Shown piece by piece: positions 27,758 through 57,264 of a stretch of DNA of 64,000 nucleotides. The notes under the pieces were generated by a model. It was not told the DNA's origin. It saw nothing but the letters and a program-made list of their open reading frames with translations, and did not search any database. Position 1 is the stretch's first letter. Every line of letters begins with the position of its first letter. Source of the DNA: Runella slithyformis DSM 19594 (GTDB taxonomy: Bacteria; Bacteroidota; Bacteroidia; Cytophagales; Spirosomataceae). The stretch lies in contig NC_015703.1 in assembly GCF_000218895.1 (NCBI RefSeq), positions 4,911,001-4,975,000 on the forward strand. Reading direction: 5' to 3'. The translations under genes and the position numbers were made by a program.

Positions 27758-27759
27758 GA

Positions 27760-29199
27760 CATGAGTCATCCCGAAGTTTGGCAAGCGCAACAAGCAGTGT
27801 AAAGCACGTGGGAGATGGCGAGTCTTAATCTGTAAATCGGTATCGAAGCGTTTCGGTACCGATTTCCTGTTCTATGGCACCAATGTCTGAGAAAAAGCGG
27901 AATCCAATGGCTCCAATTTCTCAATAACATCAGCAGAAAATCATAGACTAATGCTACAATAGCAAGTAATTTGAGTCTATTTTCCCAGAACCAAAGCCTG
28001 GGTGACTCCATACCCAATTCGGCTTTACTACATCTAAAGGTTTGCTCTATATTCCAGCGATGCATATAAGAATGACACATCTCCCAAGCCAATCGAGTAT
28101 TGGTAATGGCAATGGAGGTTAGCAGATACATAGGGGGCTGTAAACTTTTTTTGTCACGTACGATAATGAGCCATAGGGATTTATCTTTGAAATCAGCGTG
28201 AGTGACCTGTGTGTAAGCGATAGTGACATACTTACTGATTTTGCGTTGGTTATCACGAGGCATTTTACGCCCCACTGCTTTGAAAGAGCGAGCTAATAAA
28301 TGAGTCTGTTTGGTTCCTTTTTCAGAATGGCATAATAGATGTGTTTTCTTCCAACGAACTAAAAAGTCCTGTTTAAACTCATTCATCCATTCAATCGTCC
28401 AGGCATTGGCATAACCTCGGTCTAACACATGCAGAACGCTGCTTCCAATGGTTTTATGGAGCTTTTTGAGCATCCGAAAGATAATGTTGGTCCCTACTTC
28501 CTGATATTTACCCCTTGATGTCCACCAACTCATCTGACATACACTTGGAGTTTGTCCCAAAGCTGACAAAAGGGTAGCTGTCCAATGAAAGCCGGGCACA
28601 CAAATGCGTTGAGTAGGTGGCTTATAAAAGCCTTTTCTTATTTTGGTCAATCGTTTGCCTTTACTGCTTTCCACACTGCATAAGCCTTCCAAAAACCATG
28701 ATTCACTCTTTTCAATCTTACTCTCATCCCACAGCAGTAAAGGACGTTGACCATTGGATTGTAAGGACTTAATTCGCTCACGGCTACGTTCAAAGAAAAA
28801 GTCATCAATCAATGTGGAAGACCATTTTTTACATCGAAGTAAATTGCTGATACGCTTCGTACCCGCCGGGGCGTGCGATAATCCACAAATATACCCGCCT
28901 AACTCGCTCAATAACAGCCCCATCCTGTTGTGACGAAACACCAATATCGCCATAAATAAGTCATAGAATGTACTCACCAAACGAGTATCAATCAGGGCAT
29001 CTAAGCGAAGTTGAAGTGGGTGAAGATACCGATGCCCCCGTTCTAAAATGAAGTCTGAAGCTCTTGACTTTGAAGCGTTTTTATCCTTGTTTTGCAGTAT
29101 TGTTCTGAACATAAAAAGACCTCCCTGTTTTTGAGTTTGTAGTGACTCTCAAAATTACAAGGAGGTTCTTTTTTACCCTAAACTTCGGGATGACTCATG
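27760..29199. mobile_element. IS4-type insertion sequence, copy 1
   Basis: The element is 1440 bases, bounded by perfect inverted ends catgagtcatcccgaagttt / aaacttcgggatgactcatg, with one transposase gene. Copies of identical length are at 44549-45988 and, with one base missing, at 55675-57113. No target-site duplication is visible: the left flank ends ...aaaaccaga and the right begins tttaagg. The flanks match the two outer halves of the hairpin repeat seen at 54038-54071, with the hairpin itself missing. Confidence 0.9.
27766..29112 (-). CDS. IS4-family DDE transposase, copy 1
   Basis: The protein has 448 residues. The RNase-H-fold active-site residues are visible as LLLWDESKIEKSE (first Asp), HVLDRGYANAW (second Asp), and the IS4-type Y-(2)-R-(3)-E-(6)-K signature in YMHRWNIEQTFRCSK. 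It is identical to copy 2 except for about two substitutions at base level; the visible one turns KMLRD in copies 2 and 3 into KMPRD here. It fills the element, ending 6 bases from one terminus, so the stop lies inside the inverted repeat. Confidence 0.93.
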   Translation of the reverse strand: MFRTILQNKDKNASKSRASDFILERGHRYLHPLQLRLDALIDTRLVSTFYDLFMAILVFRHNRMGLLLSELGGYICGLSHAPAGTKRISNLLRCKKWSSTLIDDFFFERSRERIKSLQSNGQRPLLLWDESKIEKSESWFLEGLCSVESSKGKRLTKIRKGFYKPPTQRICVPGFHWTATLLSALGQTPSVCQMSWWTSRGKYQEVGTNIIFRMLKKLHKTIGSSVLHVLDRGYANAWTIEWMNEFKQDFLVRWKKTHLLCHSEKGTKQTHLLARSFKAVGRKMPRDNQRKISKYVTIAYTQVTHADFKDKSLWLIIVRDKKSLQPPMYLLTSIAITNTRLAWEMCHSYMHRWNIEQTFRCSKAELGMESPRLWFWENRLKLLAIVALVYDFLLMLLRNWSHWIPLFLRHWCHRTGNRYRNASIPIYRLRLAISHVLYTACCACQTSG

Positions 29200-29345
29200 T
29201 TTAAGGACAAGAACATATACCTCAGTAGCTTACCTGCGATAATGAATTGTACATACACTTGTAAATACAATCAGGTAAAAAGCAAGGGTTGATAGGGGGT
29301 TCGGATGATAGAGATTGTATTTGCACAATAAATTGCCTGCTAACG
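29200..29345. repeat. Right half of dispersed repeat R1 and flank shared with 57114-57264
   Basis: The segment starts tttaaggacaagaacatata, contains tgtacatacacttgtaaata and continues to the stop of the truncated AlbA_2 gene. It is almost identical to 57114-57264. It is the right arm of the ~170-base dispersed repeat; the left arm stands on the other side of the IS. Confidence 0.75.
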
Positions 29346-32406: not shown

Positions 32407-32713
32407 CCTGTTTTACTAAAAAAAGATAGTGGTTAAGCAGCGAATAGAAAGTAAAACAAACAAGTAAGCATTTATTTTATCCTAGGTAACTGGAAAAAAA
32501 AGCCAAATATTTTACACACATTGAACCGATTTAGAAAGTTTGGAACACTATTACTAAATCGAGCCTTCAATGAAGGAATCAATCAAGTACTGTACTGATA
32601 ACGTTCCAGACAAAGGGTCATTGGATTCCAGGGAGTGTAATTTAAACTCTGTCTTTTCTTCAAATTTGATTCAAATTTAATTTTTCCTTTCGATTTCAAA
32701 TGCTTTTTTGATT

Positions 32714-32782
32714 TGTTATTTGATTTGTCAAGGGCGGCTGAGGTACGAGGCCGTTTATATACCCTTGACAAATCAAATAACA
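32714..32782. repeat. 21-bp perfect inverted repeat inside the IS256-type element
   Basis: Bases 32714-32734 (ending tgatttgtcaaggg) and 32762-32782 (starting cccttgacaaatca) are perfectly complementary over 21 bases with a 27-base loop. They lie between the transposase stop and the IS end. A transcript would fold into a strong hairpin; the purpose is unknown, with transcript termination or protection as the simple guess. Confidence 0.8.
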
Positions 32783-32815
32783 GGCTATTTTTGCGTTTTA
32801 CAATTGAAAGGAAAA

Positions 32816-34027
32816 CTACAGGTCCATTCGCATTCTATCGCCAAACTTAATGTGTAATTGTTGGGCGGTAAGTGCCCAATTTTGCAACGGAGAAGTCCAT
32901 TTTCGACTTATATTCTCAACGGCCAGATAAATCAATTTAAGCAACGCCATATCATTGGGAAAAGCCCCCTTTGTCTTGGTAATTTTACGAACTTGTCTAT
33001 GAAACCCTTCCACCGCATTAGTGGTGTAGATAAGTCTTCTAATCTGCTCATCATAAGCGAAATATGTGGACAGTTTGTGCCAATTGTTCTGCCATGATTT
33101 GATCACTACCGGATATTTGACTCCCCACTTATCATTGAGTTTATCCAGTTCCAATTCTGCTTTATCTTTTGTAGGGGCCTGGTAGACCGTTTTTAAGTCC
33201 TGCATGAAAGTCTTCTGGTCCTTGGAAGCCACATATTTAAGCGAGTTCCGTATTTGGTGAATGACGCAGGTCTGAATCTCTGAGTGAGGGAAAGAAGCCA
33301 GGATTGCCTCCGAGAAGCCAATAAGGTTATCCGTACAGGCAATCAAAATATCTTTCACCCCTCTGGATTTCAAATCTGTAAGCACCGATAACCAAAAATT
33401 GGCACCTTCGCTTTCTGAGACATACATACCAATTAAGTCTTTGTAGCCATGTCGATTTACCCCCAGTACATTATAAACAGCTCGCGTAACAACACGTCCA
33501 CCGTCTCTTACCTTGTAGTGCATAGCGTCCAACCAAACAATGGTATAAAGACTCTCCAAAGGTCTGCTTTGCCATTCTTTGACTTGGGGAATTACACGTT
33601 CAGTGATTTCAGACAGGGTAGCATGGGATATTTCCACATCATACATTTGTTGGATGTGATCCGATATGTCTCTGAAACTCATGCCCTTGCTGTAAAGCCC
33701 GATGATTTGCGGGGCAAGGTTGTCGGCCAGAACAGTTTCGCGCTTCTTAACGATTTGGGGGAAAAATGTGCTTTTTCGGTCTTCAGGAGTCGTTAAAACA
33801 ATTTCGCCTGATGCGGTTTTTAAGCGTTTACTGCCCTTGCCATTACGCTTGTTACCGGATTCTCGCTCCTGCTCATTCAGATGAGCGTTCATTTCTGATT
33901 CCAGAGCACTTTCTAAAAATTGTTGAAGTAAGGGAGCGAAAACCCCATTCTTGCCGGTTAATGATTGTCCCTTCATTAACTGCTCCAGCGCTTTGTCGCG
34001 CATCTGTTCAAATTCTGTCTTTTCCAT
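32816..34027 (-). CDS. IS256-family (mutator-type) transposase
   Basis: The protein has 403 residues, full length for the family, and starts MEKTEFEQMRDKALEQLM. The DDE residues fall in IVWLDAMHYKVRDGG, LIACTDNLIGFSEAI and TTNAVEGFHRQVRKI. The reading frame is complete, so the element is potentially active. Confidence 0.95.
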   Translation of the reverse strand: MEKTEFEQMRDKALEQLMKGQSLTGKNGVFAPLLQQFLESALESEMNAHLNEQERESGNKRNGKGSKRLKTASGEIVLTTPEDRKSTFFPQIVKKRETVLADNLAPQIIGLYSKGMSFRDISDHIQQMYDVEISHATLSEITERVIPQVKEWQSRPLESLYTIVWLDAMHYKVRDGGRVVTRAVYNVLGVNRHGYKDLIGMYVSESEGANFWLSVLTDLKSRGVKDILIACTDNLIGFSEAILASFPHSEIQTCVIHQIRNSLKYVASKDQKTFMQDLKTVYQAPTKDKAELELDKLNDKWGVKYPVVIKSWQNNWHKLSTYFAYDEQIRRLIYTTNAVEGFHRQVRKITKTKGAFPNDMALLKLIYLAVENISRKWTSPLQNWALTAQQLHIKFGDRMRMDL

Positions 34028-34136
34028 TCTTCTGTCTTAAAGTTAAAACCTTTAGACAGAGTTCATTTTACAGTCTCGGATTCCATGAACAGTAATTTCT
34101 CTGAAACTACCCAAATGGTTATTGCCAGTCAACATT

Positions 34137-35852
34137 CTAAACATTCTTTACTTTTAAAAAGAAATTTTCAATTTCACTATTAATTTTACAAAAATACTTT
34201 ATTTCTTTACTGGTAATCAATAGTGTACAAAGTCTTGCTCTGGAAGTTGCGACGTTAAATCTATTGACTTGTAATGCAAACGGTATACTTTCGGTTGGAA
34301 TGAAGAAAATACAGAAGTCTGTTGTCAAGCCTTGTATTCTGTCTATCGTTTCAACCAATACATCTTCTGTATTTGAACACTTTGAGAATATCTCTTTTTG
34401 CAGAAAACGGATTGTATCCCGGTTGAATGCCAATACAGCGATTTCAGATTTTGCATTAAACTGTTTTAATGTGTTCACCAATTCTACTATAAATTTAGAG
34501 CACTCACCTGAAGGTATTCGACCATCTGGCAATTCGACCATCTTTAAAGAAGTACCGCCATTATCTTGAAATGTATTTTTTAACAATGGAAATTGACTGA
34601 ATTTCAATGGAAGTTGAGCTTCTGATTTGCTCTTTAACATTCCGGAATAAAACGAGTTAGTTGCATCAACACTGTTTTGTGTTAGCCGGTATGAATCAGT
34701 AAGTATGTATTGCTTTGTATTTGGCAAATAGTAACTTATCGCCTTTAGGCCGCAGACCATCAAGTGGTAATTGTTAATGTCTTCTGGTGCATATTCCTTA
34801 TGGAATATAGGTTCAAGCTGTTTTATGTCGCCTATAATTATGCATTTTTTACCCAGCTTTTTCGCTAATGCAATAGTTGATAAAAATGCCTGACTTGCTT
34901 CTTCAATAATAATGTAATCAAAATGATCATCCACAATTGCCTTTGAAGCAATCTGAGACATGATGTAGTAGGTTGACAACAACATTTGAGGTTTCTGCTG
35001 ACTAAGGCTTTTAAAAGCCCTTATACCTCTTAATTTCTTGTTCTTGGATTCATCGGCAGTCAGAGCTGATTTAAATATCTTACCTTCTGCAAATCCAGTT
35101 TTCAAATGCTCTTTTTCTGCCAATTCAACTAAAGCCCTGTTGGTTAATGCAGTTACTAATATCCTATAATCTGTTTTTAGAAAGGCACTACATAGTTGTG
35201 CCATTAGATATGTTTTACCTGTACCGGGTGGACCTTGTATGATGATTGTTTCATTGTGAATTAAATCAGTTTGTATGTTTGTTACAATATCTTCATCGAC
35301 AACTAGTGGTTTAGGGTTCCATTTTACTTTAGTAATATCTAAGGACAATATCTCATTTGAATTTGCAGGTGTTTCCTTTAAGAAATTCAAAAGATTTAAT
35401 AGATAATTTAATGGGGGGTCAGTTGGTGCTAAAAATACCAATGCATCCTTTTGATATTTTTCGACATCTTCAACTTTTACACCGGACAAGCCAACAATGG
35501 AGTGATCTTTTTCATAAGTGAAGAAAACTGTTCTTGATTCAAATTGTGCAGTAACTTTTGTTCTTAAATCTTTGTAAGTTAAACCGCCCCAATTTCTCAC
35601 CGCATCACTCTGCATCTCGGAAACAAAACACTGAAAGTGTTCGTTTTTCCTTGGAGGTAAACATATCTTATGATCAAACTTAACAATCAGATTTCCCCTT
35701 GCTTCGTCAAACCCCTGGTAACGGCATAAGTACAGTTGACCGTCAACAAACATTTTAGCAGCTTGCTTTCTGAGTAACTTTTCAAACTCATTTGTTTGAT
35801 AGGTTAATTCATCCTGAATAAGATTTATGTGTTTGCTATTATTGATAGTCAT
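34137..35852 (-). CDS. Superfamily 1 helicase paired with the sacsin-like ATPase
   Basis: The protein has 571 residues. After a ~190-residue N-terminal region of unknown kind come the SF1 (Dna2/NAM7/UPF1-like) motifs in order: I IIQGPPGTGKTY (~205-215), Ia TALTNRALVELAEK, II YIIIEEASQAFLS, III GDIKQLEPIF, IV LTDSYRLT, V ETIDRIQGLTTDFC, VI FNVATSRARLCTLL. Motif II has EE where DE is usual, as in many UPF1-type enzymes. The start overlaps the stop of the upstream ATPase gene by 14 bases, so the two are translationally coupled. It is strongly AT-rich like its partner. The IS256-type element follows directly. A nucleic-acid-unwinding effector of a defence pair is the likely role (inference). Confidence 0.85.
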   Translation of the reverse strand: MTINNSKHINLIQDELTYQTNEFEKLLRKQAAKMFVDGQLYLCRYQGFDEARGNLIVKFDHKICLPPRKNEHFQCFVSEMQSDAVRNWGGLTYKDLRTKVTAQFESRTVFFTYEKDHSIVGLSGVKVEDVEKYQKDALVFLAPTDPPLNYLLNLLNFLKETPANSNEILSLDITKVKWNPKPLVVDEDIVTNIQTDLIHNETIIIQGPPGTGKTYLMAQLCSAFLKTDYRILVTALTNRALVELAEKEHLKTGFAEGKIFKSALTADESKNKKLRGIRAFKSLSQQKPQMLLSTYYIMSQIASKAIVDDHFDYIIIEEASQAFLSTIALAKKLGKKCIIIGDIKQLEPIFHKEYAPEDINNYHLMVCGLKAISYYLPNTKQYILTDSYRLTQNSVDATNSFYSGMLKSKSEAQLPLKFSQFPLLKNTFQDNGGTSLKMVELPDGRIPSGECSKFIVELVNTLKQFNAKSEIAVLAFNRDTIRFLQKEIFSKCSNTEDVLVETIDRIQGLTTDFCIFFIPTESIPFALQVNRFNVATSRARLCTLLITSKEIKYFCKINSEIENFFLKVKNV

Positions 35853-38800
35853 CTTCAGGGTTTAGTAGTTTGAAAATATCTTTTGACTTATCTCTTGAAT
35901 TTTCTCTATCGATAATCAGCAAATGCTTGTTTGCATCACGATTGGCATTACAGAATGTAAATAGTTCATCGAATGTTTTTTCATATTGATAAGCGAGTAA
36001 ATGACTTGTATTAAGGCTCAATATATCCTCAGCTGTATTATATATTTTTATCCGATTCTTAGAGCCAAAATCTAATGCCATTTTGTATCCCTCATCCCTC
36101 ATACGCAATATTTCATTTGGATGAATATAAGCAAATGAACCTCTTGCACTATGGACAAAATATTTTTCATCGCCATTTGATAAATGGTTGAAATCCTTTT
36201 CTGCTTTATCAAAATGAATCGATGTGTCTTTAGCTAATTTCAGTTTAGCGATAAGATTGTATAATTTCTGTTTTTCTTTCGGGTGGCTTTTTGAAAGCTC
36301 AAGAATATTTTTCAATTCAGGGATATACTCATTCCATTCGGTATTTTCCAGTTCTATTTGGATAAATTCCTCCACTTCTTTTATCCAGGAACTTTTCCAA
36401 TCATCAGGCAAACTGTCAAAGTTTTTTTCCAGTTCTTCAATTATACTTTTCTCTGAATCGTCAAAAATATATCTATTAAAAACCTTTTCCTTTATTGCAC
36501 CAAACTTAGATACAAGTTCATACAGATATTTTCTTATTGCACTCCTTTTTGCACCAATATCTTCAATGTAATAAATTGTATTGCTAACTGCTTTTATATT
36601 TAACTCCCATTTCCAAACCAACCCTCCATGACTTATAGTATTTGATATGTCATCACACTTAACAAATGATAAGTTGTTTACTAAAGTTAAAATTTGTTTT
36701 GAAAGAGTTAGGTACTCCGTAGTGCCATTCTTAATATTAAAAGCCAAGTATTCAGCTCGATTTTTAAAAAGAGTTTTGATTTCTAAATCATCTGTAGAAT
36801 TAATATCCTTCTCAAAATGAAATTCACTATCATTTGCAGATATGCTTCTTACCCCTAATTGCGATGATAATGATACAAATTCAGCATGAAGCAAGCGATT
36901 TGGTTGTTTGCCAATTATTTCTGTATCTGTTGATGTATAGAGTTCCCCAATTGGAAACCATTCATAGCTCCCATTAGGTAACTTTAAGCCATTCAGGTTT
37001 TCGGGGGAGTATTTATATCGTTTCATAATATTAACGATATTCAAACTGTTGACCTGTTGTTGTGTTGGTGGAGTTGCTCTTCTAAGCAATGCCAGACACT
37101 GCCCTATACTCAATTCTTGGTTAATTCCAATTAGCACCTCTAATGTTGAATTATTGTAAGTAAACTTGGAGAAGTCGATCAAAGGGATAAGACTTTTATC
37201 ATCAATATATTGCCCTAAGCCATTTGAAAATAGCTCTGTGGGCTTCTTGAAAATAACACCTGCCACTTCTATTGTACTATTGCTTTTAACAATATTCAAT
37301 GCATTACTTGCCGCAAATAATTTTATATTATTATCTGAGGCTATAATGTAATTCCAAATGTTGGGAAGATATTTTGAATTTGTAAGAACTTGCGATGGAT
37401 AGAATTGGTAGAGATTTGGGCTAATCAATTTGAAGTTATAATCGCTATGTACGCCCAACATTTTTAAAAACTCAACGCTAATAGTATTTTCAAAATAACC
37501 TTTTGACAAGAACTTAAACTGTGACTGTAATTCTGCATCTATTTCTATATTTAATTCCGGTTGAAACTCATCTGGTAAATGAATGTCAGAAGGTAAATGC
37601 CAAGTGTTATCTGATGAAGTTTGTAATTTCAGTTTTCCAAGCTTATTAATAAAATCAAAAGTTACAGGGACAGCCTCCTTTTTATTAGCCTGGTAGTATT
37701 GATCAAGATCTTTTAAAATTGCAAAATGTATTCCTCTAAGGTTATCCTGGCTCGTAGTTAAAGTATCTATTTTTTCATTAAATATCTTCTGTTCACTATT
37801 TAGATCTTTACATCCCAGCAATACAAAAAATGCTTTCCAATCTGATACATAGGTTTGTTTCGGCTGATATTCCGAACTAATTTGGTTGGGTAATTCAATT
37901 GAGGTGAGTATTTGATTAATTCGCTTGTCTGCTGTATAGTATTCAGGAATAATACATTCTTTCGCAACATGAAAGCCCGAACTTGTTTTAAGTTTTATTG
38001 ATTGTTGGATTAATGTTATTTGGGCAAGAGTTATTTGAGAATCGGGCTTCTCTCTATTTAATTGCCAATATTTACATATTTCAATGCCTGCTTTAAAATG
38101 TAAGGAATCCTCAAGCTCTTTCAACTGTGATATTAGTTCACTAATAACATCTCTTAAACCAATTTTTGCTTTTGCCGTTCTAAATATTTCGTTCCAAAGT
38201 TGTTTATCATTAGGTCTTTTGGCAAAATCAAAGTTGGGGAGAATGAAGTATTTTCCCTTCAATTTCAAATTTGAAATAATGGTCTCTACCTCATCATCTT
38301 TGGCCAATTCCTTTGGAAGGTAGACTGATGATATTGCTTTAATATTAAGAATACCTTCCTCGACCTGTTTACAAACTATTGATAACTGGGGTAATGATTT
38401 TTTAATCTCATCATCTGCTTTGAAAAGCGACCAGTTATCATAAATGAAGTTCCAAGTATTGATAATATTTTTCTCATTATTCAATAAAGCTATTAACCCC
38501 TTTAGATTTGTCTTGTAAAAATCAATTGCACTGAAAGGTTTAAGATTAAGCTGTATTTGTTCATTATCAAGCAAACTTTTTAAAGCAGGATTTATTTTAT
38601 CAACGCCAATGAAGGATACCTCTTCAGGCTCTTCATTAAATAGATCGGATGCAAGGCAAAGAGTATTTTTAGCAGACAAGGCAATACTTTCTGTTGTCAA
38701 CAGAAGTTTTAAAGAAGGGTCAGTAGAGGTATAAAAGTGTTTTATTAATTTATAATTGTTTACTGGATTTTTTAGCCATATTTGAAAAGCCTCTTTCTTT

Positions 38801-40584
38801 AAATCCGCTTTTAAATCGTCAACCAAATAAAGTTTGCCCACAGTTGAGTATGCCTTAATCAAGCCTTCCACTTTAGACAAACCTTCTCCTGAATCTGAGC
38901 TGATAAGTTTTTGTGATAACCCAGTCAAACCTTTAAAATCATCTGGCAGTAATACTGCAATTCCAGTTTTGTCAATCAAAATATTATTAAGTGGTTCCAA
39001 CTGGCCTGATTGAGCTGGAATGAATGCAATTGGAGCCACTTCAACGGTGCCCAATAAGCCAGTTTCAAAACCCTTCTTAAAAGATAATAACAGATGCTTG
39101 TTTCTTTCATCAATTATCTGGTTTTCTATTATTGTAAAATCCGGTATGATTGATAAGTAATTTCTGTTAAACTTGAAATTACCTGCATTTCGCTCATCCT
39201 TTTTCAAGCCTATTGACCTTACCCATTTGAGAAACAAAAATCCTGATTGCTCAATCAAGAAATCATTCCACTTAATGTTGTGAAAAAACTCTCTTGTGCC
39301 ATCTGGAATAAAATCACCATTGATCAGGAAATCAAAGCCCAAGTTTACTTTTGTAGGCAAGTAGTTATACAAAACTGCATTAGTAGTTTTTAAAATATGA
39401 TCTGATGAACGACTGGTTGCAAATTGAATTATCGAACTCTGAATATCATAATACTTTTCTGGAACTACTGATTCATTGTCGTCTATTTCTTTGTTAATCC
39501 ATTCTCTGACATTGTCTGGAATGACTACCTGTTCTTTTCCCATCCAATAGTCAAGTAAGTTCTTTTTTGATTCCTTAAACCCAGTTGGGGTAATAATCTT
39601 AGCATTTTCAATATTGGGTAAAAAAAGCAGTATTCTATCATCCGTAAAAAGACGATTTAATATAACATGATATTCTTCGAGTTTTTCCCGCCTTCTGGGC
39701 TTTAGTGCAATTGAGACGGTTGAATTTTTGAAAATTGTAGTCTCTACTATTTCTGAATCCATTTCCGATGGCTCGGACCATATGGGGATTATTTGATAAG
39801 GCTTCTCAGTTACGAATTTGCTGCTATCAAATCTGAAAGAGTAACCACCACTTTTGATATAAGCGAAATTACAATCTTTAAATACTGACTTAAACCCTAT
39901 TCCCTTAAAGCCAATCTTGTCAATTGAATCGGATTTGTCACTTTCATTTACTGAGCATATCGAATGAACATTATTCACTTTAAAGACAGCACCCGAATGA
40001 CAAAAAAGTAAATAATTATCAGAAATTTTAAAGGAAACGTAGACTTTGTTTTCCCTTGCTCTGTCAGGGTAATCACTTGCATTTTGCAACAATTCAAAAA
40101 TGAATGTTTCGGGTGATTTATTAATTTCTCGTTGAATCGAATTTAATGCTTTCGCTAATTGTTGATTGTTTGCAAAATGGGTGTTCTCAGCGATTGAAAA
40201 TCGTCTATTAATAAACTCCTTAGGATCGGGATTGTATTCTATTGGTCTATATGTTTCATCCATCTGAAGAGCAAATGGATTTTCATGCCTCTCTCTTATA
40301 GCCTTAGACGATAACTTCGCTTTAAATTGATAGAATACACCTGGTCTAAGTTCTGAAAGCTCATTATGAATATGAACCCAAAGCTTCTTACCCTTTAATT
40401 TTGTGTTTAATTCATCATTGCCTAAAAAGTTAAGGGAGAAGTAATCGGTAGTTTTAACATTTACAAACCGAAATGTTCCTTGATAATTATAATACTGACC
40501 AATAAAAATCATATCAGTACTATCATACTCTTTTTGCAAGTACGTTAAGATCTCATTAGCCGATTTATCAAACCAAATAGACAT
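35839..40584 (-). CDS. Giant sacsin-like GHKL (HSP90-type) ATPase, 1581 residues
   Basis: The N-terminal ~130 residues have no recognisable domain. A GHKL ATP-binding fold of the sacsin/HSP90 type follows: the N-box is FIFELLQNASDYPDR (~162-176) and the glycine box is KIGFKGIGFKSVFK (~213-226), with FDFLINGDFIPDG-like wording (LGFDFLINGDFIPDGTREFF) further on, as in sacsin repeats. The remaining ~1100 residues are unassigned and mixed helical/strand, with no second Walker motif seen. Such proteins occur in bacterial defence islands and in chaperone-like roles. It is coupled to the SF1 helicase by a 14-base overlap and lies 163 bases after the DUF499 gene. The 163-base spacer (40585-40747) shows nothing but AT-rich sequence. 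Confidence 0.8.
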   Translation of the reverse strand: MSIWFDKSANEILTYLQKEYDSTDMIFIGQYYNYQGTFRFVNVKTTDYFSLNFLGNDELNTKLKGKKLWVHIHNELSELRPGVFYQFKAKLSSKAIRERHENPFALQMDETYRPIEYNPDPKEFINRRFSIAENTHFANNQQLAKALNSIQREINKSPETFIFELLQNASDYPDRARENKVYVSFKISDNYLLFCHSGAVFKVNNVHSICSVNESDKSDSIDKIGFKGIGFKSVFKDCNFAYIKSGGYSFRFDSSKFVTEKPYQIIPIWSEPSEMDSEIVETTIFKNSTVSIALKPRRREKLEEYHVILNRLFTDDRILLFLPNIENAKIITPTGFKESKKNLLDYWMGKEQVVIPDNVREWINKEIDDNESVVPEKYYDIQSSIIQFATSRSSDHILKTTNAVLYNYLPTKVNLGFDFLINGDFIPDGTREFFHNIKWNDFLIEQSGFLFLKWVRSIGLKKDERNAGNFKFNRNYLSIIPDFTIIENQIIDERNKHLLLSFKKGFETGLLGTVEVAPIAFIPAQSGQLEPLNNILIDKTGIAVLLPDDFKGLTGLSQKLISSDSGEGLSKVEGLIKAYSTVGKLYLVDDLKADLKKEAFQIWLKNPVNNYKLIKHFYTSTDPSLKLLLTTESIALSAKNTLCLASDLFNEEPEEVSFIGVDKINPALKSLLDNEQIQLNLKPFSAIDFYKTNLKGLIALLNNEKNIINTWNFIYDNWSLFKADDEIKKSLPQLSIVCKQVEEGILNIKAISSVYLPKELAKDDEVETIISNLKLKGKYFILPNFDFAKRPNDKQLWNEIFRTAKAKIGLRDVISELISQLKELEDSLHFKAGIEICKYWQLNREKPDSQITLAQITLIQQSIKLKTSSGFHVAKECIIPEYYTADKRINQILTSIELPNQISSEYQPKQTYVSDWKAFFVLLGCKDLNSEQKIFNEKIDTLTTSQDNLRGIHFAILKDLDQYYQANKKEAVPVTFDFINKLGKLKLQTSSDNTWHLPSDIHLPDEFQPELNIEIDAELQSQFKFLSKGYFENTISVEFLKMLGVHSDYNFKLISPNLYQFYPSQVLTNSKYLPNIWNYIIASDNNIKLFAASNALNIVKSNSTIEVAGVIFKKPTELFSNGLGQYIDDKSLIPLIDFSKFTYNNSTLEVLIGINQELSIGQCLALLRRATPPTQQQVNSLNIVNIMKRYKYSPENLNGLKLPNGSYEWFPIGELYTSTDTEIIGKQPNRLLHAEFVSLSSQLGVRSISANDSEFHFEKDINSTDDLEIKTLFKNRAEYLAFNIKNGTTEYLTLSKQILTLVNNLSFVKCDDISNTISHGGLVWKWELNIKAVSNTIYYIEDIGAKRSAIRKYLYELVSKFGAIKEKVFNRYIFDDSEKSIIEELEKNFDSLPDDWKSSWIKEVEEFIQIELENTEWNEYIPELKNILELSKSHPKEKQKLYNLIAKLKLAKDTSIHFDKAEKDFNHLSNGDEKYFVHSARGSFAYIHPNEILRMRDEGYKMALDFGSKNRIKIYNTAEDILSLNTSHLLAYQYEKTFDELFTFCNANRDANKHLLIIDRENSRDKSKDIFKLLNPEDDYQ

Positions 40585-44032: not shown

Positions 44033-44548
44033 AATCGTTGAATCGGTTATTCAAATGAAAGTGTGCCCTGTATTACCTTCGATAGTTCTGCCTGTTTGCT
44101 TTCTCGAATGAGACTGTCGCGGTTGCTCAGTAAGCCCGTAGCCTGTTTGTGGTCATTGCAACCGGCGGGCAGTAATTCCAATAGGGAAGTGACAACGCGC
44201 CAAAAAGCCGATTCGGGGCTGTCGGCTACGGCGGAAATATGGGCCAATAAAGGACTGCGGTTGGCCCCGGCATAGAGGTGCATGGCGCGGTGTACCTGGT
44301 CAATGAGGGTATCCGTTTTATTTTCCCCCAGGCGTTTGTTGATGGCAATCCTTTCCTGATAATTGCCCAAGGTTTGTTTATTGCCCTTTTTCAGAAGCAA
44401 ATGCTCGGTAAAAAGCTCATTGACATTGATCGCCAGGCCGACTCGGCTGAATTTGGCTGCATCGTCAAAATCACTTTCAGTAAAACCATATAGTTGAAGC
44501 CAGCCAATGTAGAACTTTGTAAAATCATCCCCATCAAAACCTTTTAAA

Positions 44549-45988
44549 CATGAGTCATCCCGAAGTTTAGGGTAAAAAAGAACCTCCTTGTAATTTTGAG
44601 AGTCACTACAAACTCAAAAACAGGGAGGTCTTTTTATGTTCAGAACAATACTGCAAAACAAGGATAAAAACGCTTCAAAGTCAAGAGCTTCAGACTTCAT
44701 TTTAGAACGGGGGCATCGGTATCTTCACCCACTTCAACTTCGCTTAGATGCCCTGATTGATACTCGTTTGGTGAGTACATTCTATGACTTATTTATGGCG
44801 ATATTGGTGTTTCGTCACAACAGGATGGGGCTGTTATTGAGCGAGTTAGGCGGGTATATTTGTGGATTATCGCACGCCCCGGCGGGTACGAAGCGTATCA
44901 GCAATTTACTTCGATGTAAAAAATGGTCTTCCACATTGATTGATGACTTTTTCTTTGAACGTAGCCGTGAGCGAATTAAGTCCTTACAATCCAATGGTCA
45001 ACGTCCTTTACTGCTGTGGGATGAGAGTAAGATTGAAAAGAGTGAATCATGGTTTTTGGAAGGCTTATGCAGTGTGGAAAGCAGTAAAGGCAAAAGATTG
45101 ACCAAAATAAGAAAAGGCTTTTATAAGCCACCTACTCAACGCATTTGTGTGCCCGGCTTTCATTGGACAGCTACCCTTTTGTCAGCTTTGGGACAAACTC
45201 CAAGTGTATGTCAGATGAGTTGGTGGACATCAAGGGGTAAATATCAGGAAGTAGGGACCAACATTATCTTTCGGATGCTCAAAAAGCTCCATAAAACCAT
45301 TGGAAGCAGCGTTCTGCATGTGTTAGACCGAGGTTATGCCAATGCCTGGACGATTGAATGGATGAATGAGTTTAAACAGGACTTTTTAGTTCGTTGGAAG
45401 AAAACACATCTATTATGCCATTCTGAAAAAGGAACCAAACAGACTCATTTATTAGCTCGCTCTTTCAAAGCAGTGGGGCGTAAAATGCTTCGTGATAACC
45501 AACGCAAAATCAGTAAGTATGTCACGATCGCTTACACACAGGTCACTCACGCTGATTTCAAAGATAAATCCCTATGGCTCATTATCGTACGTGACAAAAA
45601 AAGTTTACAGCCCCCTATGTATCTGCTAACCTCCATTGCCATTACCAATACTCGATTGGCTTGGGAGATGTGTCATTCTTATATGCATCGCTGGAATATA
45701 GAGCAAACCTTTAGATGTAGTAAAGCCGAATTGGGTATGGAGTCACCCAGGCTTTGGTTCTGGGAAAATAGACTCAAATTACTTGCTATTGTAGCATTAG
45801 TCTATGATTTTCTGCTGATGTTATTGAGAAATTGGAGCCATTGGATTCCGCTTTTTCTCAGACATTGGTGCCATAGAACAGGAAATCGGTACCGAAACGC
45901 TTCGATACCGATTTACAGATTAAGACTCGCCATCTCCCACGTGCTTTACACTGCTTGTTGCGCTTGCCAAACTTCGGGATGACTCATG
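44549..45988. mobile_element. IS4-type insertion sequence, copy 2, in the methyltransferase gene
   Basis: The element is 1440 bases with the same perfect 20-base ends as copies 1 and 3, in the opposite orientation (transposase on +). Flanks are ...ccttttaaa and ttcacggg..., with no duplication. It splits the DUF1156 gene after codon 856. Confidence 0.93.
44636..45982 (+). CDS. IS4-family DDE transposase, copy 2
   Basis: The protein is full length at 448 residues with all active-site motifs (WDESKIEKSE, LDRGYANAW, YMHRWNIEQTFRCSK). At the few positions where the copies differ it agrees with copy 3 (KMLRDNQ; gcgatcgtgac-type sequence) rather than copy 1. Confidence 0.94.
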   Translation: MFRTILQNKDKNASKSRASDFILERGHRYLHPLQLRLDALIDTRLVSTFYDLFMAILVFRHNRMGLLLSELGGYICGLSHAPAGTKRISNLLRCKKWSSTLIDDFFFERSRERIKSLQSNGQRPLLLWDESKIEKSESWFLEGLCSVESSKGKRLTKIRKGFYKPPTQRICVPGFHWTATLLSALGQTPSVCQMSWWTSRGKYQEVGTNIIFRMLKKLHKTIGSSVLHVLDRGYANAWTIEWMNEFKQDFLVRWKKTHLLCHSEKGTKQTHLLARSFKAVGRKMLRDNQRKISKYVTIAYTQVTHADFKDKSLWLIIVRDKKSLQPPMYLLTSIAITNTRLAWEMCHSYMHRWNIEQTFRCSKAELGMESPRLWFWENRLKLLAIVALVYDFLLMLLRNWSHWIPLFLRHWCHRTGNRYRNASIPIYRLRLAISHVLYTACCACQTSG

Positions 45989-48600
45989 TTCACGGGCTAA
46001 CTCTAATAATTCGGCTACGGTTACTTCGGTACCATCGGCTTTTTCTACTTTTTTGTATTGACCAAACTCACTGACTGCTTGACCAAAACAGGCAGTGAGT
46101 AAATCAGCACCTCTAAAACCCAATTTGTATAATTCAGCAACTTCTTTAGCTACAGTCTTTTCTACTGCTTTTTTTACCTCTTTGTAATTTCCGTAGCCTC
46201 TGCTTTCAGCAGGTTTACAGGATACTGTTACAGAAGAGGCTAAAACTGCATTTGATAAACCTAAACTTCGGTTTGCCATTTCAGTATCCACTGCCCAGCT
46301 CCCGGTAATATTCATTCGGGCATCTAATACGGAATTACATAATGTTGTCCAGGCCTCAGTACTTTGGTGGGCAAACATAACACTTACAATATCAGCCGTT
46401 TGATGCTCAATAGCATCGAAGATTTGGGTCAATTTATTTTCAAAGTGTTCCTTTGCTTCCTGTTTGCTATCATTATGATGATGCTTTAGAGCCGTACATT
46501 CTTCACTTTTGGGGGTTTGTGGGGTAGCAAAGTTTAAAGGGTAGACATCACCTAAAGTACGTTTTAACCATACGTAGAAAAAATCAGATAAATCTGCGTA
46601 AGGAATGGCATCATAATAGGGGGGATCAGTAATAACTGCCGTTAAATATTTGTCAGAAAACTGTGATTTATCGCCACTGCTGGCATTTTTTAGTTCAACC
46701 GAAAAAGAGTAATCGTTCTCTGATTCAATATATCTGATAAGCCATTCCAATTGATTTAGGGCACTACCTGTAGAATTACAAAACATATTTGATTCAGGGT
46801 AGTCAAACATCATAGCAATAGCTTGTTTTGAAAATGGATGTTCAAGTGTTTCTCGCCCATTGTGCCATCTGCCAAAAGAAGTATTTACAAGTGAAATTCT
46901 GTCCAATAAAATTCCCAAGTAAGTAACAATAGCTTTTCCATAATCCTCGTTGTTGGACAATAAATCCTGTTTAAGAAGATTAAGTTTGTTTACCAAATTT
47001 TGAAGGGCATATAATTGGCGGTTAGAAAATAAATCACCCCATAATTTAAAACCCCATGGTGTTGGAAATTTACCAGTATGCTCTATCGGTAACTCTTCAG
47101 AAGGTTTTTCATAACTTATGTCTATATCGTTAATTACTTGTAGGGCTTTTTCACTGGGCAAAGTATATTCTTTGCCATTTTTGCCGTCCCAGATAACTGC
47201 TAAAAGCCGTTCTTTAGCTTTATCTTGAATAAATTGTTGTCTCAAATTTTTAACATCAGTCACACTTCCACAACATGGACAGGTCAGGTTTGCACTTTTT
47301 AACCAGCCCGGTATATTACTTTCTTCGTACCCTCCATGTTCTATTTGAAAGCTAATCTCATTATCACTTACAAGTGGCCTTAAATAAACTTGTTTGGCTT
47401 TTGTATTAGCTAAGTAAAATTGTCTTAGTAGAGGCACCTCTGCTTTGCAGGTAGGGTTGCTGCAAATGGCAACCCGAGTCCAATAATAAGCAATGGGCTT
47501 ATTGCCTTTTTCATCAGCAGGGTAAAGGTGGCCTATCTCCTTTTCAGTATTGTTTATTAATTTCTTTGCATAAAACTCTACATCAAAGCTTAAACGGTTA
47601 GGTATTTCTATTTTTAAGTTCTCAGTGTCAGGGTGTTTGCCGTTTTCTTTGCACCATTTTTTTAATTCATCTCTCCCATATAAATTTTCAAATTCACTTT
47701 TACTGTAAGTGATTGGTTTACCGTATTTCTGAGGGAATTCCAAACTGCCTTTCTGAATAATGTGAGCTACCGGATTAATGTCGTTGCCGTATGTTCGGCA
47801 GCCCAATCGAGCCGCTTCTAGCGGTATGGCTCCCCCACCCGCAAAAGGATCAAAAACCTTGGGCATCCGGTCGAGAAAGGATTCAATGGCTTGATTGACG
47901 GCTACCGTTAATTGTTTGGCAGTTTCGGTTTCAAGGTGTCGGTCAGGCAGGCTGTAAAGTTTTGTTTCGGCATTTTTAATGGCGCTGTATAACTCGTCAA
48001 ACTCTTTCAGTAATTCATCGGCGCTTTTTGGGTTACTGCCGGCAGATGACTGTAAGCTGTTATGTGCCACAAAAATGAGTTTTCGGGCTTTGTTGATGAT
48101 AGCTTCGTTTTTTTTATTATCCCATTTAATGAGGCTGGCGTCGCTGAGTTGTTTCCCTGCCGCAGGTGAGGGTCGACTATGAAGAAGCGCCTGCTGCATA
48201 TCCTCCGTAAATTTCCCGATAAACATTTGCAGGCGATTGCGAAGGCTATCTTCCATGGGGTCAAAAACGGCCGTCCACGGAATGTCTTTGTAAGGAGTGT
48301 ACGGGTCGCCCGGATTGTTTTCTTTTCCAAGAAGTATTTCTACCGCATCACGGAACGCCTGCGGGCAATTAGGATCGAGAGGGTCAGGTACTAAACTGGC
48401 AAATACTACCGCCCGGCACACCGGCAGCGGTCGGCGCGCCCACCACAGGTGCAGCGTACTGATATGCCCATGCCGAATTGATTTATCTCTTACACTTTCC
48501 GCCGATATTTCTTTGATCGGCATCGCTACTTCTATGAGTTTTTTAGGGGCAGTCATTGGTATATTTTTCTCTCAATAGGATGTGTTTATGTTTTTTGGTT

Positions 48601-48656: not shown

Positions 48657-49685
48657 TCACTGATTCAAATAGTCGAATTCACCCCAATTATGATTGTTGA
48701 GTTTTTGAGCCAACTCTTGAGCGGTATCCGCTTTTAACACGGCGGCAATCTCCCTGAAATACTTTTTCGATTGCAGCATTCCCCCGCTCGTTTGTTTATA
48801 AAAATACGTTTCAAAGCCTTCTGACAGAAGAAATACCTGCAAATCATATGCGTTTATCTCCTCTATTCTATTCGACCATTGGTTTATCTTATTGAGTGTT
48901 TCCAGCTTCAATAGTTCTTCGCTTTCTCCACTGTTATTCCAAGAAATACTAACACTTTTTAAACCCTTTTCGACCACTAAGACAGCTCTGATCTCATGGA
49001 TTGTGCGTACGGCTTTGTCGGAATAGGCACCAAAATATTTAGCACGTTGATGGGTATAGGCACCTCCTGAATTTGGACACATATACACACCGTCGTTTAC
49101 TTCGTGTAACGTGCCCGATGAGCTTACTACGTCCAATAGATATTTCCACTTTGGCAGGTAGTTGTTTCGATCAAGAAATTCCCGAAACTCCTCCACAAGA
49201 TAGGAAAGTGAAGTATTTTGGTAGGAATTTTCGAGGGCATCAACGAAATTTTCAAGGGAAAGAGGTTGAAGGACAACACCATCTTCTTTCGCTTTCTGGA
49301 CACTTTCCTTGACTTGCTCAGAGATATTATCTTCCTCAAAATTGCATAACAGAAATAGAATTTTTGTCTGAATAGACTTATTAAAGCCCTTGATGTGGTT
49401 GATTAATTGCTCATCATAAAACCAATTTGTTCTTTTTACTTCAAAAAAGACAGAAAAGGAGTTCTGAACAATCGTCAGGTCCGGAATACTGTTTTTACCT
49501 TTACTTTGCTGGTTAAACACCGGTCCCACGACCAAATCGGTGCCTGATCCTGCGATAGTGACCAAAAATTCCTGAAAACGTTTGGGACTTTCTTCATAAA
49601 GCAGTTTCATCACCAAGCCACAGTGATTGGTCAGTATGTTTTCGGGCTGGTGATAATCGGCAAATAAGGATATAGGTTTGCTCAT
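48657..49685 (-). CDS. Probable PD-(D/E)XK-type nuclease
   Basis: The protein has 342 residues from the ATG at 49685, which overlaps the helicase stop (ATGA) and is preferred over a start 13 codons upstream inside the helicase gene. The signature is SIPDLTIVQNSFSVFFEVKR: Asp, then Glu-x-Lys about 14 residues later on the next strand, preceded by a helical region. This fits the PD-(D/E)XK nuclease core. The rest has no motif I know. Its place between an SNF2 helicase and a methylase gives a restriction-like layout. Cleavage activity is inferred, not shown. Confidence 0.65.
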   Translation of the reverse strand: MSKPISLFADYHQPENILTNHCGLVMKLLYEESPKRFQEFLVTIAGSGTDLVVGPVFNQQSKGKNSIPDLTIVQNSFSVFFEVKRTNWFYDEQLINHIKGFNKSIQTKILFLLCNFEEDNISEQVKESVQKAKEDGVVLQPLSLENFVDALENSYQNTSLSYLVEEFREFLDRNNYLPKWKYLLDVVSSSGTLHEVNDGVYMCPNSGGAYTHQRAKYFGAYSDKAVRTIHEIRAVLVVEKGLKSVSISWNNSGESEELLKLETLNKINQWSNRIEEINAYDLQVFLLSEGFETYFYKQTSGGMLQSKKYFREIAAVLKADTAQELAQKLNNHNWGEFDYLNQ

Positions 49686-52600
49686 ACAATGGTTGAGGTA
49701 TAAGAGTGTAACTTCGATTTCCACTCGTTCATGGGCAAAAAGTACTGTACACCCTTGGATTTTAGTTCAAAGGTCAACGCCTTGGCAGGATTCTGAATGC
49801 GGTATAGTTTGGGTTCGCTTTTACAATTCATCACGATATACAGCCAAGCCGCATCACCGAGTTGGGCCAACCGGTTCATTTCATTTTCTGAAAGCATCAC
49901 ACTGCCATCCGAGCCACTTCGCCCTTTTACTTCGATGTAGCGTTTAAGTTCTTCGGAGCTGATGCTTTTTATGTCGTAGCCTTCGTTGTTGGCACTCACA
50001 TCCACCGGTTTCCAGCCTACGCTGCTTTCGTAGTCCATAGCCGTTTTCATCGCAATGGCCTCGGCTTCATCATCCCGGCTCATCCCGTAATGGCCCTTGT
50101 ACTCCAGTTGGGTAAGCGGTACTACGTACGCACAGCCCAATACTTCCGGGGCCTTAGGGCTGAGTTGGGCCATCAGTTCCAGACTTGCCAAACGACTTTC
50201 CTTCTTATGGATAAGTTCGTTAATACGTTCCTGTTTTTTCAAAATCTTTTCCTGCACTTTGGTATCACCCAACAATACCTTCGTTTGCAGTTCCTGTATG
50301 GCAATCTGCAAGTCCATGATGACTCTTGTAAAAGCCGATTCGAGGTATTTTTTACGGTCCGCTGCGTCTTTCAAAACATGGTCTTTGGTATCGTCAAATT
50401 GTGGGACCGTAATTTTTTCAAAACTCCATTGAATCACTTCATCCGTACTGATGACAGTGGGTGGCTCAATGGGTTTGGTAAAATCGGTCGGTGCGTGTAA
50501 ATCAAGAAATTTTGCCGGCGAAGTGATCTGAAATTCACCATTATTGGCTTGGTGTACCATAACCAAACGTTCATCGGCAATACTGTCTTCCTGATACCCG
50601 GGCCGATTATCCACAATTTGGCTTTTTACAAAAAAAGCAAAGTAACCTTCTTTATCATCGGGAGAAACAAGGATGGTGCCTTTGATCATATCTTCCCGGT
50701 ACAGATTACGAACTGCTTTGACCAAACTGTCAAAAACAGGGTTGCCGGGGTTTATATAATGGACCTTTCCCAAATCGCCAAGATTCTGATAATCAAGAAA
50801 TACCTGTTTATCGAAGCAAAATTGAATGGATTTAAGCGCATCAAAGTGAATTTTATGCCTGTCCCGCAGTTCAGTAACGACGGCATCCGGCATTTTGTCA
50901 ATCCGGTAAATGGACGGTCTCAATTCCGTAAAAGCTCCGCCCAGGCTTTTGAAGGCTTTTTCAAAAAACAGGCGAATGTAAATGGGCTGGAGACGCTTTT
51001 CGTCTGAATTTTCTTTCAAAATTCGGGCATCTTTAAAGTCAATGGTGCTGTGGGCCAACTTGGCTTTTTGTTCCTTTATTTTTTCAGTAAACCTGATTTT
51101 CAACACTTCATCTTCCTGAGCCAAAAACCTATCCAAGTCGGTTTCTTTGCCGTTGAAAACGGAGTTGATAATATCATCCAAGCCAACGCCTTCCAGTACA
51201 TCCTGAATGACGTCATACACGCGGTCGTCACCGATACCTTCCCGAATAATGTCCAATTTGGTTAACAGGCGTTCCAGTACTTTTCCTTCTTTGGTATTGC
51301 TTGCCACCATGTTAAAAACCAGTACATCCTGTTTTTGGCCATAGCGATGAATTCTACCCATGCGCTGCTCCAATCGGTTGGGGTTCCACGGAATGTCCCA
51401 ATTGATCAGCAAACGGCAGAATTGCAGGTTGATCCCTTCACCGGCGGCATCGGTCGCGATCAGAATTTGGGTATCAGGCTTAGCAAAGCTCCACTGAGCT
51501 TCCCGGCGTTCGTCCACCATTTTACCTCCGTGAATGGTAACGACTTTATAGCCACCGCTTTTGGTGAGACGTTCTTCCAGATACAGCAACGTATCTTTGT
51601 GTTCGGTGAAGATGACCAGCTTTTCTCCTTTATCCAGTACACCGTTGGATTTAAGCAGCTCCTGTAATTCCTGAAATTTCTTCTCTTCCTGCTTTCGATG
51701 ATAAAGAGTTTGAGCCATCTCAAACAACTTTTTAACTTCGATAGCTTCCAGTTGTATCTCTCCCAAGCTTTTGGCAGTGGTGAACAGCTTAAATTTACGG
51801 GGGTCGGAGAGGATATTTTCCAAGGCGTCTCTTTCATCGTCCTCCAATTCTTCAAATTCTTCAATATCGCCCACATCAAAGCCTTCCAGCTTGTGGCGTT
51901 GATTCCAAAGATTGGGGTTTTTATTGACCTCATCTACAATGCCCTGTAGGGCTTTCCACCTTCTTTCCAGCGTATTTTTAATGGCGTAGATAGAACTTAC
52001 CAATCGGCGCTGCATCACTGTTAAAGCCAAAGAAACGTGAATATTTTTCGTCTCAGTAGCCTCTTCTTTTTTCTTGCTTAGGTATCGGGTTACGGCTTCG
52101 TAGAGATCTTTTTCTTCGGGAGTAAGTTGGTAGGCAACCGTTTTTGTATAACGACTCTTGAACAGAGGATTACCCTGCCAATCCTTCATATCCTCTTTTA
52201 ATCGACGAATGAAGAACTTGTTTATCCCGTTGTGCTCCAGTTCTTTGATTCGGGTAGAAGCTATTTCATCCGTAGCAAAAATATCTTCATCCAAAAGTTG
52301 CAAAAGCTTTTTAAAGGTATCCTTTCTGCCCCGGTGAGGTGTAGCGGTGAGCAGCAAAATGTGCTCACATTGCTGTGATAAAACCTGCGCTGCCTTATAG
52401 CGCTGTGACAGGTATATTTTGCTTCCGTAGTCGTAGGCAGAGAGTTTATGACACTCATCAAATACCACCAAATCCCAATGAGAGTTGCCGGCAACATTGA
52501 GGACATCTTCGCGACACATAAAATCAATGGAACTGACTACTCTCTGTGCCGTATGAAAAATAGTAGGGTCAGAAGAAAAAAGGCTTCTGTTGACCAGCGT

Positions 52601-55594: not shown

Positions 55595-55674
55595 ACCTTT
55601 GTACATACAATTGTCCATACATTTGTATATACATCGCTATTTTAATCAGGAAATATACTTCTCTGAAAATCAAA
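55595..55674. repeat. Dispersed repeat R5, left arm (split by IS4 copy 3)
   Basis: tgtacatacaattgtccata and tttgtatatacatcgct are followed by aaatatacttctctgaaaat, matching the left arm of R3. The right arm resumes at 57114. The hairpin that stands between the arms in R3, R4 and R6 is missing and the IS is in its place. Confidence 0.8.
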
Positions 55675-57113: not shown

Positions 57114-57264
57114 TTTAAGGAAAAGAACATATACCTCAGTAGCTCACCTGCGATAAGGGGTTGTACATACACTTGTAAATACAATCAGGTAAAAAGCAAG
57201 GGTTGATAGGGGATTTGTATGATAGAGATTGTATTTGTACAATAAATTGCCTGCTAACGGTTGA
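57114..57264. repeat. Right arm of R5 and flank shared with 29200-29345
   Basis: The stretch starts tttaaggaaaagaacatata, then tgtacatacacttgtaaata and atcaggtaaaaagcaaggg, and runs to the AlbA_2 stop. It differs from 29200-29345 only at scattered positions. Confidence 0.75.

Follow-up and report, generated by a model that had tools for sequence, protein, structure and literature searches.

A two-gene, helicase-coupled relative of Tiamat in Runella slithyformis, a candidate anti-phage system

We analysed a window of 64,000 nucleotides from the genome of Runella slithyformis DSM 19594 (NC_015703.1, positions 4,911,001 to 4,975,000), in which the gene of a giant ATPase overlaps that of a superfamily 1 (SF1) helicase. 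On balance, this pair is probably a modular variant within the Tiamat (TmtA) superfamily, with two genes and a coupled helicase, in which a sensor would act on that helicase through an adaptor, and which is very probably directed against phages. A first-pass annotation of the same DNA had proposed an undescribed defence pair belonging to no named system. The latter part does not stand, as the ATPase matches the PADLOC TmtA model PDLC03972 with 320.4 bits in four stretches; the helicase gave only partial PADLOC matches, to MkoA and others. Because the ATPase thus falls in PADLOC’s TmtA superfamily, the pair is better regarded as a two-gene form of an established kind of system than as a wholly undescribed one. 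The pairing as such may still be new. We found no published account of it in the openly licensed PMC papers, a collection that leaves subscription papers and preprints largely uncovered, and it is possible that it has been described elsewhere in the literature. A role of the pair in defence, as judged from its superfamily, its sporadic spread and its neighbours, seems likely.

The gene pair and its conservation

Both open reading frames (ORFs) of the first-pass annotation and their overlap are confirmed by the coordinates, and the features of the pair are as follows.

35839..40584, minus strand: ATPase ORF, 1581 aa, sacsin-type GHKL, Tiamat/TmtA superfamily (ORF call, Pfam, NCBIfam, PADLOC)
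39826..40107, minus strand: ATP-binding sacsin domain, residues 160-253 (Pfam SACS, NCBIfam P_loop_sacsin)
40072-40095, minus strand: N-box ELLQNASD, residues 164-171 (motif position)
39889-39912, minus strand: GFKGIGFK, residues 225-232 (motif position)
37435..38523, minus strand: ATPase body, residues 688-1050, probably three tandem repeats of ~120 aa (profile self-comparison)
35842..36384, minus strand: C-terminal domain (C-domain) of the ATPase, about residues 1401-1581 (break points of DNA similarity to loci L114 and L006; models)
36139-36159, minus strand: strand FVHSARG of the C-domain, aligned by eye to F-I-D-V-K of solo relatives, a register without confirmation by a tool
35842..35877, minus strand: acidic C-terminal tail IFKLLNPEDDYQ of the ATPase (comparison of paired and solo tails)
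35839..35852, minus strand: 3' end of the ATPase ORF and 5' end of the helicase ORF, overlapping by 14 nt (ORF positions; overlap of equal length in L006 and L114)
34137..35852, minus strand: helicase ORF, 571 aa, UPF1/IGHMBP2-like SF1 (ORF call, Pfam, profile against structures)
35214-35237, minus strand: helicase motif I (motif search)
34890-34904, minus strand: helicase motif II, EEASQ (motif search)
34236-34265, minus strand: helicase motif VI (motif search)

The sacsin/HSP90-type ATP site and the UPF1-like character of the helicase, both proposed in the first-pass annotation, hold up. NCBIfam P_loop_sacsin scores 71.4 bits on the window ATPase (cut-off 50) and Pfam SACS 26.9 bits, under its cut-off of 32.8, while the top PDB chains for an eight-row ATPase profile are sacsin domains (5v44-5v47). 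The repeats of the body were recognized by comparing the ATPase profile with itself (residues 688-927 against 812-1047, 96.9% probability). For the helicase, AAA_11 and AAA_12 exceed the Pfam cut-off, the closest solved structures to a 12-row alignment are SMUBP-2, Sen1 and UPF1, and all three of the SF1 motifs sought (I, II and VI) are present; in the helicases of L113 and L133 motifs II and VI were found and the strict motif-I pattern was not.

The helicase belongs to a clade of 18 loci (the window, L006, L016-L025, L112-L115, L133 and L134). The first helicase profile was made from seven of these (window, L006, L016-L020) and so necessarily matches them; on this profile the remaining eleven reach 404 to 809 bits, and the 75 non-clade loci among the matches listed reach at most 124 bits, three of them giving no hit. 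The scan of genome contigs for the helicase, with 80 loci among the matches listed and 5 of these in the clade, is no census. A Tiamat-type ATPase ORF lies directly upstream of the helicase in 17 of the 18 clade loci, and in 14 it is an intact single ORF. It is split into two ORFs in L016 and L112 (the outer one of L016 being cut by the contig end), and in L134 only the C-terminal 847 aa are present, judged L133-like by eye. Our own ATPase profile gave no hit in L113 and L133, for which the assignment rests on the PADLOC TmtA model PDLC03970 (1495 and 924 bits, respectively). Where the gap between the two genes was measured, at 13 loci, it ranges from -14 to +13 nt, and none of the 75 non-clade loci among the matches listed, several of which are short contigs, had an ATPase or C-domain hit. 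These comparisons support a conserved operon, and the 14-nt overlap points to translational coupling of the two genes.

Relatives of the ATPase also occur alone. A search of the order with PDLC03972 matched 9 of 146 genomes, four with the pair (the own genome, G407 with two loci, G465 and G194) and five with a solo ATPase (L118, L129-L132); together with L007 and L008 these make up our solo set of seven proteins. No clade helicase was found near any of the seven within the stretches examined, that of L118 being a 4.4-kb contig with its flanks unseen. The solo protein of L129 matches TmtA over residues 1-1323 with 1428 bits, and, taken with the scores of L113 and L133, this suggests that the PADLOC TmtA models cover both forms and may count two-gene systems as one-gene systems. 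Tiamat has reportedly been validated as a single-gene defence system, and, given the TmtA matches and the solo relatives, the window ATPase might likewise defend alone, with the helicase as a dispensable neighbour. We consider this unlikely in view of the adjacency throughout the helicase clade, the lack of NOV_C in paired proteins, the in-frame swaps that keep the C-domain with the helicase, and the GHKL-helicase fusions described below. Read as a two-gene variant, the pair shares with Tiamat a giant sacsin-type GHKL ATPase matched by TmtA profiles. It differs in having a second gene for an SF1 helicase, in carrying another C-terminal domain and an acidic tail instead of NOV_C, and in a TmtA match that stops short of the whole length and of the C-terminus. 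A mechanism for Tiamat was not found in the portions consulted of the openly licensed PMC literature.

The C-domain and helicase as a mobile cassette

Three of the loci share the end of the ATPase and the helicase. Between the window, L006 and L114, the C-domain is 80% (window-L006), 77% (window-L114) and 79% (L006-L114) identical and the helicase 91, 81 and 80%, respectively, in contrast to 23, 28 and 23% for the ATPase body. With L017, L114 shares 44% identity in the body, but only 15% in the C-domain and 35% in the helicase. At the DNA level, similarity to the window’s 4746-nt ATPase ORF starts at nt 4237 for L006 (87%) and at nt 4201 for L114 (76%), and continues through the helicase. A helicase tree unites the window, L006 and L114 with support of 100, whereas a tree of ATPase heads (13 paired and 7 solo proteins; L016, L112, L133 and L134 left out) nests L006 among the solo proteins with support of 100, and joins L114 to L017 (98) and the window to L022 (89). 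An approximately unbiased (AU) test rejects the three as one ATPase-head clade (p about 1e-10), although the trees were quick and the group was picked after the identities were known. On the head tree, the solo/paired label changes three times, two of these changes being forced by starred branches. C-domain and helicase, as these comparisons establish at the level of sequence, form one co-inherited cassette that moves between unlike ATPase bodies.

The C-domain is also where paired and solo proteins differ. All seven solo ATPases end in Pfam NOV_C and have an invariant D followed by (D/E)xK. NOV_C was not found by Pfam in any of the 14 paired C-domains searched, the window included (L021, L025 and L134 lie outside this set), and paired domains have no (D/E)xK in common, 6 of 15 being without any in the last 130 residues and the others having it scattered. 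AlphaFold models of the C-domains of the window and L022 (predicted local distance difference test score 68 and 79.5, predicted template modelling score 0.66 and 0.78, respectively) consist of a helix, three or four strands, a helix and a strand. The paired C-domain is likely, though not proven, to be a degenerate nuclease domain of the PD-(D/E)XK/NOV_C-like kind, and its co-inheritance with the helicase suggests that it docks the latter. Tails are more acidic in paired than in solo proteins (Mann-Whitney p 4e-4, 15 paired versus 7 solo, relatedness ignored), the tail of solo L131 matching the least acidic of the paired tails. The tail of the single-stranded DNA-binding protein (SSB) recruits helicases and nucleases, and the acidic tail of the paired ATPases recalls it by analogy.

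Several points weigh against our reading. The best TmtA stretch on the window ATPase spans only residues 135-816, the clade helicase of L115 stands without an ATPase, and most clade loci come from one phylum. On the head tree, solo L132 groups with proteins of the paired kind (91), so that solo and paired proteins are not two clean clades. Over 13 loci, helicase identity is followed more closely by C-domain identity (Pearson 0.95, Spearman 0.51) than by body identity (Pearson 0.12, Spearman 0.25), but the Pearson value of 0.95 depends on three close loci, without which the Spearman coefficients are 0.45 versus 0.25. For the nuclease-like fold, Foldseek searches of the PDB with the window and L022 models gave 44 and 43 PD-(D/E)XK nucleases, respectively, in their top 50 rows, as judged from the titles, but these are many entries of few proteins and no match was significant (best E 0.09 and 0.23). 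Among the rows are PvuII, Hjc, HincII, RecU and viral endonucleases, which we take to be PD-(D/E)XK nucleases. A profile comparison of paired and solo C-domains was weak (44% probability, E 2e-4, 39 columns). It is uncertain how the solo (D/E)xK lines up with the paired domain: MAFFT places it on N-G-D of the window, alignment by eye on H-S-A, and D-E-K occurs close by in the window and L114 and is missing in L006. Finally, docking of the helicase is a proposal drawn from co-inheritance, and the window helicase carries no nuclease end, which leaves a gap at the effector step.

Helicase ends and a proposed working

The ends of the helicases vary as well. Of the 17 complete ones (that of L134 is cut by the contig end), seven carry a PIN domain (PIN_4 by Pfam in L006, L020-L024 and L133), one a HEPN domain (HEPN_Swt1 in L025, 27.7 bits, cut-off 27.5) and one a Cas4-like match (L016, 22.4, slightly below the cut-off of 22.7). 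No nuclease end was found in the remaining eight, by Pfam in the window, L018, L112 and L114, and as judged from a length of 565-595 aa and a missing PIN motif in L017, L019, L113 and L115. PIN parts are 57-85% identical among six PIN-bearing loci, compared with 25-67% for the helicase cores, and the type of end changes seven times on the helicase tree (parsimony on a quick tree). Like the cassette, the ends have evidently been exchanged. The PIN part, searched as the last 170 aa of the L006 helicase, was found in 1 of 148 genomes of the order at E 1e-25, namely at the L006 locus.

Truncation of the window helicase by an insertion sequence is not likely, as a search of the window found nothing of the C-terminal parts of the L006, L016 or L020 helicases, and it is further weakened by the helicases of L114, L017, L018 and L019, which are about equally short.

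GHKL ATPases and SF1 helicases are also joined in single proteins. L185-L187, from IMG/VR viral contigs, encode chains of 1589-1718 aa with a sacsin-type GHKL part and an SF1 helicase, and the two that were scanned with PADLOC, L185 and L186, match both TmtA and MkoA. With only ~52 bits on the clade profile, the fusion helicases fall outside the clade, and the linkage of GHKL ATPase and SF1 helicase, therefore, exists more than once.

The PIN and HEPN ends could also be taken as those of a device resembling abortive infection or toxin-antitoxin systems, in which the ATPase restrains a toxic helicase-RNase and releases it on infection, and a restrained nuclease in a helicase-nuclease complex has a precedent in Hachiman, according to its abstract (PMC12278908). 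This explanation is possible but doubtful, since the window helicase and seven others are without a nuclease end and restraint alone does not account for the different C-domain.

In the two-gene Tiamat variant that we favour, the ATPase body (GHKL head and repeats) would be an exchangeable sensor, which on binding a phage-made structure or protein would undergo ATP-dependent closure of an HSP90-like dimer. The C-domain, probably a non-cutting PD-(D/E)XK/NOV_C-like fold, would hold the partner helicase together with the acidic tail, and through it dimer closure would allow the helicase to move along RNA or DNA or to remodel it. In many relatives a PIN or HEPN RNase or a Cas4-like nuclease on the helicase end might couple translocation to destruction of nucleic acid; the window form, which lacks such an end, would have to act through the helicase alone or through an enzyme in trans. 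More tentatively, and with somewhat less than even confidence, we propose a defence architecture of three swappable parts, i.e., the GHKL body as sensor, a cassette that combines a dead NOV-like nuclease domain with the SF1 helicase, and a terminal RNase or DNase (PIN, HEPN or Cas4-like). One-gene Tiamat would have turned into a two-gene system when its active nuclease end was replaced by a dead one, which passes the output to a helicase. This may have happened more than once, because L006 sits among solo ATPases. If true, a dead nuclease was turned into an adaptor. The natural swaps tell which parts belong together (C-domain and helicase) and which are free (sensor body and nuclease end), and they are ready constructs for asking what the sensor recognizes and at which point the signal is handed on.

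Other known systems resemble the pair in part. Mokosh (MkoA/MkoB) includes a PLD nuclease and is not known to contain a GHKL ATPase. The window helicase shares with MkoA the UPF1-like SF1 core (101 bits, three partial stretches); Pfam gave no PLD match in the window ATPase, nor among the best 25 of 40 families for the helicase. MORC and paraMORC proteins are, in the part consulted of their description, GHKL ATPases found with a helicase and a nuclease in restriction-modification neighbourhoods (Iyer 2008, PMC2292703). The setting beside a helicase is thus alike, but that part describes superfamily II helicases and MORC-like ATPases, compared with a sacsin-type ATPase and an IGHMBP2/UPF1-like SF1 helicase here, and the word “sacsin” does not occur in that paper. 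VcSduA is a Shedu protein with a GHKL domain, whose clamp is proposed to govern the C-terminal nuclease. It differs in being one protein with a DUF4263 nuclease domain and, in the part consulted, no helicase (PMC12137116). Hachiman HamAB, a complex of helicase and nuclease from two genes, serves only as a working analogy for a two-gene complex with a helicase; there the helicase is the sensor, and the part consulted of its description mentions no GHKL ATPase (PMC12278908).

Genomic neighbourhood and distribution

The two other defence operons reported near the pair by the first-pass annotation are both real, i.e., BREX (brxA, B, C, pglX, pglZ and brxL, about 11.4-27.2 kb) and Hma (hmaA, B and C, 40.7-53.1 kb). 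The latter looks broken, because the hmaB ORF extends 71 nt into an insertion sequence (44544-45990), and Hma is thus probably interrupted. Three copies of this element, 99.8% alike and with a DDE_Tnp_1 transposase, lie in the window (44544-45990, 27759-29204 and 55673-57118). A different element follows the pair, beginning about 50 nt past the helicase stop, and is not part of the system:

32624..34085, minus strand: IS256-like element, Mutator-family transposase ORF 32816-34027 (ends by eye, imperfect inverted repeats)

It is conceivable that the pair consists of accessory genes of the Hma (or BREX) operon, since it lies on the same strand, 163 nt after hmaC, and HmaA itself has NOV_C. We consider this very improbable. 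Ten neighbour proteins were chosen for a scan, taken from six of the other 17 loci, and none was an Hma or BREX protein by best match; in addition, hmaB runs into the insertion sequence. Moreover, the pair is indeed AT-richer than its flanks, with a GC content of 0.326 and 0.342, compared with 0.41-0.46 in hmaA, hmaB and hmaC and 0.433 in the transposase gene downstream, and a GC content at third codon positions of 0.29-0.30 versus 0.35-0.48 in the Hma genes. The scanned neighbours are mostly restriction or other defence genes, which agrees with the defence-island setting assumed earlier: a mad3/LmuB-like protein, a type I R protein, PDC-S02 and pAgo in L006, type IIG in L018, type I R in L019, type III Res and PDC-S11 in L022, an AbiP2-type reverse transcriptase in L023, and weak matches only in L025.

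The pair is sporadic: within the family it occurs in 7 of 150 genomes and within the order in 5 of 148, in overlapping samples that both contain the own genome. Phylum-wide, the ATPase was found in 4 of 395 genomes and the helicase in at least 2 (the own and G194), the latter search being insensitive with three candidates scored per genome. Clade hosts among the matches listed are Tannerella forsythia and metagenome-assembled genomes of Chitinophaga, Porphyromonadaceae, Muribaculaceae and Kiritimatiellae. In eukaryotes, the sacsin/HSP90 and UPF1 families work in RNA quality control, and a housekeeping pair of chaperone and RNA helicase could be imagined here too. This seems extremely improbable for a pair that is so sporadic and AT-rich, has defence-type neighbours where scanned, and in one case (L133) lies on an IMG/VR contig. 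Among 72,556 plasmid records, 9 matched the ATPase, none covering 80% of it, and the window helicase had no match in plasmid records at E 1e-20. In phage records the L133 helicase had no match at E 1e-15, and in a second viral scan no clade helicase stood beside any of 13 ATPase hits. Among 39 other viral loci of the helicase scan, L143 gave a faint ATPase-profile match of 14 bits.

The L133 contig, 59.7 kb long and filed as viral, carries a complete pair with a PIN end, and a Zot-like-looking ORF and a recombinase-looking ORF were noted by eye around it. In L006 (8935-19012), a PDC-S02 PD-(D/E)XK gene and a pAgo gene lie immediately upstream of the chimeric pair, with which they could form one operon. 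In L115 (259-4994), three apparently paralogous genes of unknown kind (300-361 aa) precede the helicase, a different partner set. HmaA (window 49682-53128) ends in NOV_C like the solo Tiamat-type ATPases and has a PADLOC TmtA hit there. Two genes with SLFN_AlbA_2 and HATPase_c_4 occur in the window (15952-17316 and 57265-58725), one inside the BREX operon beside a HipA_C gene, and positions 953-1171 show self-similarity at 29-nt steps, probably reflecting tandem repeats.

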